The position numbers and the translations under genes are program-made. From Clostridiales bacterium (GTDB taxonomy: Bacteria; Bacillota; Desulfotomaculia; Desulfotomaculales; VENG01), in assembly GCA_016278505.1 (NCBI GenBank), contig JADQBQ010000033.1, forward strand, positions 1 to 64,000: 64,000 nt of DNA, given 5' to 3'. A model generated the notes under the pieces. That model worked only from the letters and a program-made list of their open reading frames with translations, did no database searches and had not been told where the DNA came from. Shown here one piece after another: positions 12,655 through 63,547 of this stretch. Every line of letters begins with the position of its first letter. The stretch's first letter is position 1.

Positions 12655-12800
12655 GCATAGAGTAGGGGATGAAAGAGCCCTACGTGAAAGGACTAGCTGC
12701 ACCATCACGGCCCCGAGTCATGCGTGGGCAGCCGCGAGGCCGCACGTGAAGCGTTGACAGGGGAAAACGTAGGCCAGCCATCGAGCTCCGAAATCACCCT
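12655..12800 (+). mobile_element. Group II intron remnant (copy 1)
   Basis: From GGGGATGAAAGAGCCCTAC to GCTCCGAAATCACCC this stretch is about 90% identical to 14068-14205. The sequence style (GCACGTGAAGCGTTGACAGG, CCGCGAGGC stems) and the intron-protein text that follows copy 2 point to the RNA part of a bacterial group II intron. Neither intron end is recognisable here. Seen directly: the duplication. Inference: the intron identity. Confidence 0.5.
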
Positions 12801-13036
12801 TTTGCGCGGGGAGGCTTCGGAAAGCTTAAATAGCTTTCCAAAACCTCCTAAAAAGGGTCTGACCCTCAACGCGTTAACATACTAAAGTAAAAACCGTCGC
12901 GTTAGCGGGGGTTTTAAAAATTTGTACATAGGTCTCATTATCGGAACCATTTTTAATTAATAATTCCTGCCGATGTTGAAAAGTATATATCACATTGTTT
13001 ACTTGGGATCAAAGTAAGGTATTAAAAAAGGACGAG
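12801..13036. other. Non-coding stretch with a strong hairpin
   Basis: No gene. GGAGG-GGAAAGCT (12810-12826) pairs with AGCTTTCC-CCTCC (12832-12848), and AAGGGTCTGACCCT (12854-12866) forms a second small palindrome. Together with the intron remnant this fills the gap between hicB and the Rpn fragment. Confidence 0.5.
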
Positions 13037-14068: not shown

Positions 14069-14450
14069 AAAGAGCCCTACGTGAAAGGATTAGCTGCACC
14101 ATCACGGCCCCGAGTCATGCGTGGGCAGCCGCGAGGCAGCACGCGAAGCGTTGACAGGGGGAAACGCAGGCCAGCCATTGAGCTCCGAAATCACCCATCC
14201 GGGGTGCCGACCATGTGGACCGAAGGGGAAGGCAACACGGTATACTGCGCAGGGCAGCGAGTCGTATACCGGCCCCGCGGAGTCAAAGACCCTGAGCATG
14301 CGTGGACACTCTATGCTCGAGAACCGGGAGATCTCAGCGGTACCCGCCGTCTCAAATAAATTGCGGGTCGGCCAGAGAAGGCCTGTGGCCGCAATCCTGA
14401 CGTGTACGCCGCTGAGAAGTCAGACACCGGTATAGATGATAGGGACGATA
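14068..14450 (+). mobile_element. Group II intron remnant (copy 2) with start of the intron-encoded protein
   Basis: The first 140 bp repeat copy 1. Further on, translated text reads SMLENREISAVPAV and, in another frame, DVYAAEKSDTGI. NREI...EKSD is the usual upstream or N-terminal text of group II intron reverse transcriptases. The sequence then turns into an unrelated ATPase gene, so the RT and maturase domains and the intron 3' end are deleted. The intron had entered, or was fused to, the aspartyl-protease gene. Confidence 0.55.
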
Positions 14451-30292: not shown

Positions 30293-31903
30293 GTGTCACA
30301 GAATTTATCGAGAGATAATATGAAGCTTTTAATTATTGTTTATTGTCTAATGATTCTCTTTCTTTTTCCACGTGCTTGTTTGGGACAGGCTCCAAAAGTA
30401 TTGGATGTTGTTGGGGGCAATTACCATACGGTGGCTGTAAAAGATGACGGCACGGTATGGGCATGGGGTTTTAATTCCCATGGCCAACTGGGGGACGATA
30501 CAACTTTGGTTAGGACTGCACCCGTCCGTGTAACCGGCTTGACAAATGTAACGGCTGTTGCTGCGGGCTGGAGTCATAGCCTGGCACTTAAAGATGATGG
30601 TACTGTGTGGGCCTGGGGCGCTAACCAGCTTGGCCAGTTGGGTGATGGGACGATTATAGATAGATCCACACCTGTTCAGGTTTCGGGTATAGACAATGTG
30701 ATTGCCATCGCCGCAGGTGATGATCATAGCATGGCATTAAAAGATAATGGTTCGGTTTGGACCTGGGGAGATAATTATAACGGTCAGCTGGGTAATGGAG
30801 TAAGCGATGGGAGTATCGATGCGTTTGATGAGGGCATAGATGCAAATACCCCGGTGGAGGTCTTGGGCTTAAGCGGTGTTGCTGCCGTGTCCGGGGGAGT
30901 AATACATACTCTGGCGCTGAAAAGCGACGGAACCGTGTGGGCATGGGGAGGCAATTATCAAGGGCAACTGGGGGATGCAACCACTACACAAAGGCCTACA
31001 CCTATTCAGGTTCGTAATATAACGAGCGCAAAATCCATTGAGGCTAACGGCAGACATTCGGTGATTGTGAAGAATGACGAAACGGTTTGGGGATGCGGCT
31101 CAAATTCATATGACCAATTAATTAATTCATCCGATACTGTGGTCACACCGGTAATGCAGATGAGTATAACAGGTGTTGATGATGTTGCTGCGGGAGAAAG
31201 GAATACATATTTTCTCAAAAAGGATGGCACCGTTTGGTCACAGGGGGATAATTCCAGGGGGCAGGTTGGGGATGGTACCAACACAGACAGAAGCACTCCT
31301 GTCCTGGTTAATGATTTAACAGATATTACAGGTATCAGTGCCGGGGGACACCATGCTTTGAGTATAAATGCTAATGATCAAATTAAGGCTTGGGGCTATA
31401 ACAACTATGGACAAATTGGAAACGGGACAACAGAAAACTACTCATATCCTGTGGGAGTGATTTTACCTTACATAGGCTCTTACAGTGATGCTGGTTACAG
31501 CATTAAGTGTGACACATTTAACGATGGCAGTAATACTGTTTACGTTGCCGGTCCTGGTTTTGAACCGGACGCAGGGTATATTGTTGCTTACTACGACGCT
31601 GCGGGTTTCAAAAAGGCAAGCGATAGTATAATGTCAAACTCCCAAGGTGAAATTAAGAGCTCTTATTTTCTGAGTTCCGATCAAGAAGCCGCTGATGGTG
31701 TATGGCATGCAGTGGTGTGTAAAGATTCGCCACCGGCAAGCTATGCCGCAGATGACCCTAATCTGGTTGTTGAACATGAATTTACCGTGGAACCATCAGC
31801 CATTCCGGAATTTCCCACTGTGGCGGCGCAAATAACGGTAATTGGGTTGTGTATGGGTATCTATTGCTGGATGAGAAAAAGGAAAAGGGCATTAACTAAT
31901 TAA
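30293..31903 (+). CDS. Secreted RCC1-repeat protein with PEF-CTERM-like tail
   Basis: 536 residues. A signal peptide ([20 protein letters not shown]) is followed by about seven RCC1/BNR-type repeats with the consensus [19 protein letters not shown] (a seven-bladed propeller), a beta-rich region (residues about 390-500), and the end [20 protein letters not shown] then a basic RKRKR. The tripartite end (PEFP motif, one membrane helix, basic cluster) is like PEF-CTERM sorting signals known mainly from archaea, suggesting surface display after processing. GTG 30293 has AGAGGG upstream; ATG 30320 would give a shorter signal peptide. Followed closely by membrane-protein genes. Confidence 0.8.
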
Positions 31904-31924
31904 AGATTGAGCAGGGGAATAGCA

Positions 31925-32308
31925 GTGAAGATATTTTCGTTTAAGGTAATATACATATTATCTTTAATAATCCTGGGTCTATTACTGATCTCGGTGTTTT
32001 TCCAACCCTTTGCAGCCAGTAAGGAATATAGTACTGTGCAAAAGGAACAGTTACTAAAAACAGATGACGGCTGGATTATACAGTTTGATTTGGTAAACCG
32101 GGAGGATAATGATGTAGGGTATTTAATCAGGTGTTTAGCCGGGGAAAATGCTTCTTATCAGGAACCGGTTCTGGTTCCCGCGGGTGGCATCTATACATAC
32201 AGTCGTCACATCAGGGCGGATAAGGTGGCAGCAGAAAGGTTAAAGATGACCATCTTGCGGGGTGGCGAAAAGCTTCCTTTTGAAGAAACAACTTATTACT
32301 TAAAGTGA
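31925..32308 (+). CDS. Membrane-anchored hypothetical protein
   Basis: 127 residues: one N-terminal membrane helix (VIYILSLIILGLLLISVFF) and an extracellular beta-rich domain (WIIQFDLVNREDNDVGYLIR, AGGIYTYSRHIRADKV). GTG 31925 is chosen because AGGGGA lies 8 bp upstream. It overlaps the CPBP gene by 4 bp (GTGA). No family is recognised. The domain, with its alternating strands and mention of a 'loaded' substrate-like tail, resembles small carbohydrate- or protein-binding modules only loosely. Context suggests a partner of the RCC1 surface protein. Confidence 0.6.
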   Translation: MKIFSFKVIYILSLIILGLLLISVFFQPFAASKEYSTVQKEQLLKTDDGWIIQFDLVNREDNDVGYLIRCLAGENASYQEPVLVPAGGIYTYSRHIRADKVAAERLKMTILRGGEKLPFEETTYYLK

Positions 32309-33087
32309 GAGGGTGTATAAAGATTACGCAAGGGCTGATTATATTTCTTATTATTGGCGCCATTGGTGTATGTGAGTATATTTTTGCCTACCATAACGTG
32401 GCCTATGGAATAATATTATGCCTGGTTCTAACTTTTTTTCTTTATATAGGACTTGTTTTTCGTCCGGGGGAAGATGAAATGAATGCGTGTGTGGAATCCC
32501 TGGCGCTGGTTCCCCTGTATGTTTTATTTACAGCATCTTTGCCGTGGTTTTTTTTGCAGCAGGAGTATTTATTGCCTTCTGTTTATGCCTGCGTTCTGGG
32601 CCTTTGTTTTTTTCACATTCATCAAACAGGTTTGGATTGGAAGGAGTTATTGGGTGACTTTCCTCCCAAAGGAAAATTAGTTACTTATCTAACACTGGGT
32701 ACTGGTATTGGAATCTTTACGGGGTTGGTAGAGTTTTTGGTTTTACGAATTACTCCTTCTCATATGGGTTTTTCTATTCAAGAACTGGCACAGAATTTAT
32801 TTTATATGCTTTTCTTTGTCGGGTTAGGGGAAGAGCTTTTATTTAGGGGCTTAATTCAAAGGAATTTGTCCCGGCTTTTCGGTTGGAAATGGGGAATTTT
32901 TAGCGCTTCAGCTCTGTTTAGCATTATGCATCTCACGTGGCGCTCTGTACCCGAGCTTTTCTTTGTATTCATTGCGGGATTGGTATTCGGTGGGCTTTAC
33001 ATAAGGACAAAGAGTTTATTTCTCCCTGTACTGGTGCACGGCGTAAATAATACGGTATTAGTTTCCGTGTACCCATATTTATATTGA
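32305..33087 (+). CDS. CPBP-family intramembrane metalloprotease
   Basis: 260 residues, about eight membrane helices. The CPBP (Abi/Rce1-like) motifs are GLGEELLFRGLIQ (EExxxR), FSIMHLTW (FxxxH) and VLVHGVNNTVL (HxxxN/B), so the glutamate-activated site is complete. CPBP proteases cleave prenylated proteins or process exported or immunity peptides. Its place between a PEF-CTERM-like protein and two anchored proteins makes a role in surface-protein maturation plausible, but this is inference. The GTG start overlaps the upstream stop. Confidence 0.85.
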   Translation: MRGCIKITQGLIIFLIIGAIGVCEYIFAYHNVAYGIILCLVLTFFLYIGLVFRPGEDEMNACVESLALVPLYVLFTASLPWFFLQQEYLLPSVYACVLGLCFFHIHQTGLDWKELLGDFPPKGKLVTYLTLGTGIGIFTGLVEFLVLRITPSHMGFSIQELAQNLFYMLFFVGLGEELLFRGLIQRNLSRLFGWKWGIFSASALFSIMHLTWRSVPELFFVFIAGLVFGGLYIRTKSLFLPVLVHGVNNTVLVSVYPYLY

Positions 33088-33100
33088 GGAGTGGCACTGG

Positions 33101-33841
33101 ATGGAAAAACCGTCTGGGAGCGGAAATCAAGCGCACATTAAACTGGTGATGATATGGGTGGCTATAATTCTGCTGGGTAGTTACTGGTTGACCGTAAAAG
33201 GTACTTATGATCCGGTAAGTATTACTGTCATGCCCGAATCGCCCCGTAAGGGAAAGCCGGTGTCCGCTACTTTTAAACTTAATAACCCGCATGACAGGCA
33301 AATGAATACCGGTTACCGGTTTTATGCCGATGGTGAGCTTTTAAAGGAAGGGCAGACTGTTATTGACCCATCATCCAGTAAGACTTACCAGTATGCTTAC
33401 TCGTCCCCGGTGGAAATAGGAGAAAGGGTTTCCTTTACAGTGGAAAGTTCGTCCCACGGCAGGCGGTACGAAAAAACTATTTCAGTGCCACCGTTTCCAC
33501 CCCAGATTTGCAGTAGTTTTATATCATTTGCGTCGTTCTCTACCACCGTAATGAGCTCAATGTCCACGTCTCCTTATTACCAGGAAAATTTTTCGACTGC
33601 TTCAGGTGTGAATATAGGATTATTTATCTCAATTAGTTTGATCTTGCTTTTAATTGCGCTGGAGTTGGTGGGAGCGGCAGTAGGTGAGACGACAGGCGCC
33701 CATTATTCTTCGCGCCCGAAACAAGGGGGATTTGTTTTACGACGGTTTAAAGATAAATTTAGTGTGTTAACCTGGATTCTGTTTATCATATTTATGGGAA
33801 TTGTTTATACAAAAATCGTTATGATTTTAAGCACTGGTTAG
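33101..33841 (+). CDS. Multi-helix membrane protein with CARDB-like extracellular domain
   Basis: 246 residues. Membrane helices at about 15-33 (LVMIWVAIILLGSYWLTV), 165-190 (GLFISISLILLLIALELVGA) and 220-240 (WILFIIFMGIVYTKIVMIL). Between the first two lies a beta domain (VSITVMPESPRKGKPVSATF, KLNNPHDRQMNTGYRFYADG) like an Ig/CARDB fold. It is the fourth gene of the run 30293-33841. No named family is recognised. Such architecture fits a surface scaffold or a polymer-export accessory protein. Confidence 0.6.
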   Translation: MEKPSGSGNQAHIKLVMIWVAIILLGSYWLTVKGTYDPVSITVMPESPRKGKPVSATFKLNNPHDRQMNTGYRFYADGELLKEGQTVIDPSSSKTYQYAYSSPVEIGERVSFTVESSSHGRRYEKTISVPPFPPQICSSFISFASFSTTVMSSMSTSPYYQENFSTASGVNIGLFISISLILLLIALELVGAAVGETTGAHYSSRPKQGGFVLRRFKDKFSVLTWILFIIFMGIVYTKIVMILSTG

Positions 33842-33899
33842 TATCTTAAAATATAATATATATACTATATGTTTAATAATTTTAGTTAGAGGGCGTATT

Positions 33900-34409
33900 A
33901 TGTTACTTTTAGCTCACATGGGAATAACCCTCGGCGCAGCCGGTTGTGTGAAGGGGTATTTAGAACACCGGGGTTTAGAGAATTATGCAGAAGCTGTGGA
34001 TTACCGGCTGGTTTTGCTGGGTTCAATATTACCGGATATTATAGATAAGCCCTTAGGAGGGCTTATTTTACGGGAGACAGTAGGTAACGGCCGCATCTTC
34101 AGTCATACCCTTGTTTTCCTGTTCATGCTTATCACTTTGGGCATGATAATGTTTTTCAAGTTGAACCGGCCAGGTTTGCTGGTGATAGGGATGGGAAGCG
34201 CTATACATAATATCTTGGACGGGATGTGGGCCTCTCCTGAAACTTTTTTCTGGCCACTCTACGGGTGGAGTTTTGCCCGGGGAAACCCGGAGGGTTGGAT
34301 TCAGTTATGGTTAGGCAATCTTTTTGGTCAGCCCCTGGTTTTCGTACCGGAAATTGCCGGGGCAATAATTATAGTTTACTTTTTATTCAAAACGCAAAAA
34401 AACCAGTAG
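33900..34409 (+). CDS. Membrane-bound metal-dependent hydrolase (YdjM/DUF457-like)
   Basis: 169 residues with several membrane helices. LLLAHMGITLGAAGC, LVLLGSILPDIIDKPLGGL and NGRIFSHTLVFLF hold the His and Asp residues typical of YdjM-like hydrolases. The substrate is unknown. AGAGGG precedes ATG 33900. An AT-rich stretch at 33845-33890 may hold its own promoter. The 3' end overlaps a hairpin repeat by two bases. Confidence 0.75.
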   Translation: MLLLAHMGITLGAAGCVKGYLEHRGLENYAEAVDYRLVLLGSILPDIIDKPLGGLILRETVGNGRIFSHTLVFLFMLITLGMIMFFKLNRPGLLVIGMGSAIHNILDGMWASPETFFWPLYGWSFARGNPEGWIQLWLGNLFGQPLVFVPEIAGAIIIVYFLFKTQKNQ

Positions 34410-63242: not shown

Positions 63243-63366
63243 AGCTTTTTATTTGCCTCCTGATATAATGCTCTTTCATTGATTCCCGTTTTAGGAAGCA
63301 AATTCCTTCCAGGATATTGACAAGTTTAATAAACAGATTTAGAATGTTTAATAATTTAATACAAGT

Positions 63367-63530
63367 TAGGTAACAGGTGCCCCGTCAGGGGAGAATAGGG
63401 AATCAGGTTAAAATCCTGAGCGGACCCGCCACTGTAACCGGGAAGTGCTTGCCATGATGCCACTGTCCAGCCGGATGGGAAGGCAGCAAGGGCGATGCCC
63501 GGGAGCCAGGAGACCTGCCTGTTAGCCTAC
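63367..63530 (+). ncRNA. Cobalamin riboswitch
   Basis: AGGTAACAGGTGCC, a conserved GCCACTGTAACCGGGAAG-type stretch (ACCCGCCACTGTAACCGGGA) and the B12 box AGCCAGGAGACCTGCC near 63515. It precedes a terminator hairpin and a ThiC-like gene, so it most likely ends transcription when cobalamin is plentiful. The surrounding 63243-63615 gap contains no gene. Confidence 0.95.
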
Positions 63531-63547
63531 ACTTAAGAGGATGATGG

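Follow-up and report, generated by a model that had tools for sequence, protein, structure and literature searches.

Exosortases and archaeosortases act on proteins that end in a motif, a helix and a basic cluster (PMC11980579, PMC5244752), tripartite C-terminal signals that these enzymes recognise and are thought to handle in a sortase-like manner (PMC11980579; PMC5244752; PMC4343526). Archaeosortase C (ArtC; TIGR03762) is paired with PEF-CTERM tails (TIGR03024; PMC5244752), EpsH-CAAX protease fusions provide a precedent for exosortase-CPBP coupling (PMC1569441), and the CPBP protease MrtX itself cuts the Cys-containing tripartite MYXO-CTERM tail (PMC11980579). Here, we describe a gene module in a 64,000-nucleotide stretch from a Clostridiales bacterium (positions 1 to 64,000 of contig JADQBQ010000033.1; hereafter, the window), in which the gene for an RCC1-propeller protein with a PEF-type tail precedes the genes for three membrane proteins: ORF2 (ORF, open reading frame), a CPBP protease and ORF4. 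In our labels, G000 is the source genome, C2 the contig of the window and C18 the contig carrying the exosortase. We consider it likely that the genes in the window belong to a system dedicated to sorting proteins to the cell surface, part of which lies elsewhere, and in which the exosortase encoded on C18 would cut or transfer proteins at an AIPEF tail and CPBP, ORF2 and ORF4 would form an accessory complex.

The substrate gene (30293..31903, plus strand) encodes 536 amino acids when read from its first codon; ATG 30320, which yields a signal peptide, is likely the better start. Its product contains RCC1 repeats (E 4e-74; RCC1-like domain, 2e-88), followed by a conserved ~110-amino-acid pre-tail domain (31478..31792, plus strand)—common to bacterial and archaeal substrates of the module and 40-44% identical to ANME-1 and GoM-Arc1 proteins—and by a 34-residue sorting tail (31799..31900, plus strand) with the motif, a helix bearing Cys at +13 and Tyr at +17, and a basic end. 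As the original prediction described, the C-terminus comprises PEFPTVA, one membrane helix and RKRKR, and so has the C-terminal P-E-F motif, single helix and basic cluster of PEF-CTERM proteins. The curated PEF-CTERM model that it named for a search does not fit: TIGR03024 (cut-off 23 bits) matched neither the window protein nor any other in the genome, a result that is uninformative alone because the controls gave no match either, and relatives reached 12-13 bits. The window tail is no chance match: homologues from archaea and from two bacterial phyla conserve the pre-tail domain as well as the tail.

Comparison of 17 tails from the group formed by bacteria, ANME-1 and GoM-Arc1 revealed a distinct signature: all 17 have A-I-P-E-[FL] and an aromatic residue (Tyr or Phe) at +17, 16 have a basic one (Arg or Lys) at +21, and 15 have Cys at +13. 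A distant archaeal clade mostly keeps the motif, helix and basic end but not the Cys. The tail might instead be an ordinary, uncut membrane anchor amid a conserved, otherwise unrelated membrane operon, given that a helix with a basic end suffices for anchoring, that the curated PEF-CTERM model is unmatched and that cleavage is deduced from the enzyme family. We regard this as quite unlikely: an invariant AIPE together with conserved positions +13 and +17 goes far beyond what hydrophobicity alone would call for, and the association with an exosortase is conserved in two domains of life. Using a profile of tail plus pre-tail domain, we recovered module substrates, one to three apiece, from 11 of the 13 genomes reached via the exosortase; the other two are a genome with a remnant module (G016) and one in which the contig carrying the exosortase is 7.5 kb long (G498). 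The N-terminal parts of these substrates vary freely, from RCC1 propellers to SLH domains, Ig/cadherin-like repeats and DUF5050. On a Chloroflexi contig, exosortase and AIPEF-tailed substrate even form a single open frame of 670 amino acids (L089:9968-11980, plus strand), whose AlphaFold2 model is confident for the exosortase part and moderately so for the tail helix.

No exosortase is encoded within the window, as had been noted before, and a Pfam search of the genome returned a single gene (G000:C18:43979-44647; E 2.6e-13). Its product passes the general exosortase/archaeosortase signatures (PF09721, 50.6 bits against a cut-off of 25.7; TIGR04178, 32.8 against 23) and possesses the conserved residues C187, R232 and H252. 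Across the subfamily, Cys and Arg are present in 20 of 20 sequences and His in 16 of 20, with all 12 members of the window's clade retaining His. A genome search with the RCC1 protein returned a second match ~1.8 kb from this exosortase, covering the C-terminal part including the tail only. The 20 kb around that match hold a paralogous cassette, composed of a tailed SLH-domain protein and relatives of ORF2, ORF4 and CPBP (30%, 42% and 50% identical to their window counterparts, respectively). The SLH protein ends in AIPEFSSVVAAFFVVASCAVIYLLFRRRAAVC, its tail beginning with AIPEFSS, and the G+C contents of the window and C18 regions are similar (45% and 44%). Given a cassette beside the exosortase and another in the window, the genome therefore contains two cassettes and one exosortase. 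Thus, the outcome that would have spoken against the original prediction—neither another PEF tail nor an exosortase in the genome—did not occur, and there is good support for its proposal of bacterial surface display in which the tail is of PEF type and the exosortase is unlinked. Our census of further tails covered 43 PEFP-coding sites and the homologues of the tail domain, so a PEF tail with neither a following Pro nor the domain could escape it. One-helix proteins of 235 and 174 amino acids adjoin the C18 exosortase and have a relative near the module of Peptococcaceae bacterium BRH_c4a (L045:8526-9865 and L057:17162-17824); they are possible further partners.

Might the window cassette be a non-functional orphan, with the C18 copy alone working with the exosortase? 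Relics do exist elsewhere (in G016, L059, and as a truncated exosortase in G015, L058), and no exosortase lies nearby on C2. Against this very improbable scenario, the four genes of the C2 cassette all have open reading frames, its CPBP retains an intact active site, and its CPBP and ORF4 cluster with their counterparts from complete modules (G028, G218) on branches of ordinary length.

The same gene module—with largely intact active sites, a conserved tail and its exosortase-substrate association—recurs in two domains of life. We define a complete module as tailed substrate, ORF2, CPBP, ORF4 and exosortase; most of the loci come from metagenome-assembled genomes (MAGs). Within the class, four of 113 genomes gave a match to the exosortase profile (G000, G028, G015 and, as a remnant, G016), and the ORF4 profile matched the same four plus, weakly (19.5 bits), a protein of G014 that is part of a related DUF1616 gene set. 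The overlap has a hypergeometric probability of 8e-7, a figure that ignores shared ancestry and gene linkage. Peptococcaceae bacterium BRH_c4a (G028) carries the five module genes together with two tailed proteins, and MAG nzgw226 (G218), from another family of the phylum, has two complete modules. In G015, the module exosortase is truncated by an internal deletion and an intact one lies on another contig, while on contig 51 of G016 (L059:1-1602) the module is dying, its ORF2, CPBP, ORF4 and exosortase genes still lined up but decayed.

Scanning species-representative genomes, we detected the exosortase also in Chloroflexi, Dehalococcoidia, a Methanophagales (ANME-1) MAG, Ca. Argoarchaeum ethanivorans and Methanosarcinales MAGs, flanked by all or most module genes as far as contig ends permitted. 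ANME-1 and GoM-Arc1, methane- and ethane-oxidising archaea, hence bear the same gene kit. The distribution is patchy: the exosortase is present in 15 of 238 genomes of the Argoarchaeum class and is rare among 400 Chloroflexota genomes. In the well-resolved ones among those 15 genomes, the genes come in the order CPBP (divergent), ORF4, a small protein (with a PEF tail in most), ORF2 and the exosortase. One locus departs from the pairing, with CPBP and an ORF4 fragment but no exosortase nearby (L077, in G383). The complete ANME-1 module lies on a contig of Methanophagales MAG WYZ-LMO13 (L085), for which a binning error is possible. Based on InterPro models, neither ArtC nor PEF-CTERM domains were reported from ANME-1 (PMC5244752); this module qualifies the published inference that they lack such sorting (PMC5244752), as its proteins escape both curated models at their cut-offs.

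How does the module relate to ArtC and PEF-CTERM? Both enzymes belong to the exosortase fold family, ArtC being the top curated match of the C18 exosortase (47.4 bits against a cut-off of 100), and both kinds of tail share P-E-F motif, helix and basic end. Unlike that pair, the module scores below both curated cut-offs, forms its own clade, has its own tail signature and is present in bacteria. We therefore rejected the enzyme as an ArtC: the subfamily scores 30-48 bits with TIGR03762 and separates from ArtC in the tree with full support, so that the archaeosortase C-like assignment gives way to a separate exosortase/archaeosortase subfamily without an NCBIfam model of its own, one that has a distinct tail signal and is constantly accompanied by three partner genes. 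True ArtC exceeded the cut-off in 62 of 238 archaeal genomes, and some archaea (G499, G550 and G568) have it alongside the module exosortase. The accessory genes are a further difference: a search within 1.5 kb of 30 sampled true ArtC genes turned up no ORF2, ORF4, CPBP or tail domain at any of them.

In the same tree, the bacterial module exosortases group with those of ANME-1 and GoM-Arc1 (81/91), and archaea were monophyletic in none of 200 bootstrap trees. This phylogeny fits a transfer between Bacteria and Archaea, in either direction. The module is probably a specialised means to fix a few proteins on the surface that crossed between the two domains.

The window CPBP (32305..33087, plus strand; Rce1-like), at 260 amino acids, is a complete intramembrane glutamic protease (PF02517, E 1.5e-20, 73.7 bits against a cut-off of 22.4) with intact EE..R, H and H...N residues; E176, E177, R181, H209, H245 and N249 are invariant in 20 of 20 relatives. 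The original prediction had named such a protease as an alternative to an exosortase, yet CPBP proved to be the exosortase's constant partner. Similar coupling is known from exosortase E/protease (TIGR04162) and the EpsH-CAAX fusions (PMC1569441); there the two activities are fused, whereas the module keeps them as separate genes and adds ORF2, ORF4 and the PEF-type tail, and the window CPBP reaches only 25 of the 150 bits required by TIGR04162.

CPBP might nonetheless be the sorting enzyme that cuts the tail, as MrtX does for MYXO-CTERM, leaving the exosortase an accessory role or other proteins. It is present in both cassettes, including that of the window, where the exosortase is missing; the nearest NCBIfam relatives of its domain include Mrt_core, MrtJ and MrtS; and MrtX and related CPBP sorting proteases likewise act with tripartite tails that, as in the module, have a conserved Cys (PMC11980579). 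Every Mrt model remained under its cut-off, though (MrtJ, 45 bits against 75; Mrt_core, 44 against 100), so that we rejected CPBP as a myxosortase. Furthermore, the module Cys sits deep inside the helix, whereas that of MYXO-CTERM precedes it; the exosortase is a constant partner, retained in tail-bearing genomes with intact modules; the natural fusion links exosortase to substrate; and several bacteria have CPBP with DUF1616 but no PEF tail nearby. In light of this, we deem a CPBP cutter unlikely.

This latter gene set—a DUF1616 protein, a related CPBP and a Thr-run protein of ~90 amino acids weakly resembling the ORF4 C-terminus (25 bits)—was found at L058:3617-5649 (minus strand), L060:7119-9310 (plus), L078:208-2130 (minus), L079:9466-12076 (minus) and L080. 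It often adjoins SLH proteins, with no exosortase nearby. The set resembles the module in its CPBP, ORF2-like domain and ORF4-like C-terminus, but its bacterial examples have neither exosortase nor PEF tail. In two archaeal loci (L130:6506-9052 and L131:1833-4370, both minus strand), a DUF1616-like gene and its CPBP lie directly beside a module exosortase. Occurrence without an exosortase in bacteria and beside one in these archaea suggests that CPBP and its ORF2/ORF4-like partners form an independent unit, which came to join the exosortase. In the open-licence literature searched, DUF1616 is named in one paper, a glycoproteomics study.

Taken as a sorting system, the module may work as follows. 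The RCC1 protein would be exported via its signal peptide, with the AIPEF tail keeping it in the membrane. The C18 exosortase—taken as the cutting or transferring enzyme on family precedent—would recognise AIPEF at the outer face, attack with its cysteine, and cut or transfer the substrate to a presumed membrane or envelope acceptor, so that the protein stays on the surface. CPBP, ORF2 and ORF4 would act in the same pathway as a putative accessory membrane complex, whose most plausible task is to trim or clear away the tail helix after its release or to present the substrate, and the single exosortase would serve both cassettes. Several points weigh against this scheme. The window's stretch of contig is devoid of an exosortase, and its substrate is paired with the enzyme only via homology to the C18 tail. 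Cleavage of the tail is assumed by analogy with the family, and CPBP could be the cutter. Of eight genes sampled from the distant archaeal clade, four have Glu where the conserved His is expected. Finally, the exosortase-substrate fusion may stem from the loss of a stop codon in a MAG, as an internal signal-peptide-like stretch starts with Met.

A more elaborate version, possible but rather doubtful, is a two-protease machine common to Archaea and Bacteria: after the exosortase has cut AIPEF outside, CPBP would act deep in the helix near Cys(+13) and the aromatic residue at +17, in a CaaX-like clearing or lipid-processing step, with ORF2 and ORF4 forming the complex. Speculatively, such a second, intramembrane step would match the position of these two conserved residues well inside the tail helix; no concerted exosortase-CPBP two-step pathway was found in the open-licence papers searched. 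Spanning Firmicutes-lineage bacteria, Chloroflexi and archaea, the module could show why CPBP proteases accompany some exosortases, and its small size (commonly a single enzyme with between one and three substrates in a genome) suits direct testing of the unresolved chemistry of exosortases.

Downstream of the RCC1 gene, ORF2, CPBP and ORF4 follow each other with little or no spacing, CPBP overlapping ORF2 by 4 bases. ORF2 (31907..32308, plus strand; its start may be GTG 31925) has one N-terminal membrane helix and a small extracellular domain remotely resembling the DUF1616 C-terminus. With PF07760 (DUF1616), window ORF2 was unmatched and GoM-Arc1 ORF2 scored 18.9 bits against a cut-off of 31.6, pointing to a remote relation only. 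ORF4 (33101..33841, plus strand) combines a membrane helix, an Ig-like sandwich, an SFASFST stretch and C-terminal helices, without a Pfam or NCBIfam family above cut-off. Its AlphaFold2 model, built from eight sequences (mean predicted local distance difference test score, 65), places a better-defined seven-strand sandwich between membrane helices; the closest structures in the Protein Data Bank are generic Ig-like domains. The model is compatible with, but no proof of, a scaffold or substrate holder. A search of solved structures by sequence returned no match for exosortase, ORF4 or CPBP.

The fifth frame (33900-34409) encodes a YdjM-family protein. Of the four membrane genes whose co-occurrence was in question, ORF2, CPBP and ORF4 do recur with the module; we rejected YdjM as a member, as neither the C18 cassette nor the remaining complete modules contain it. 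Elsewhere in the genome, a further RCC1-repeat protein lies within an open frame of 1910 amino acids (G000:C41:53751-54992), with no match to the tail-domain profile there. A plasmid search with the RCC1 protein returned generic RCC1 propellers only, none reaching 80% query cover, and predicted promoters and terminators were no more numerous than in shuffles. The window also contains two group II intron domains and one cobalamin riboswitch (12672-12826, 14069-14292 and 63358-63536).

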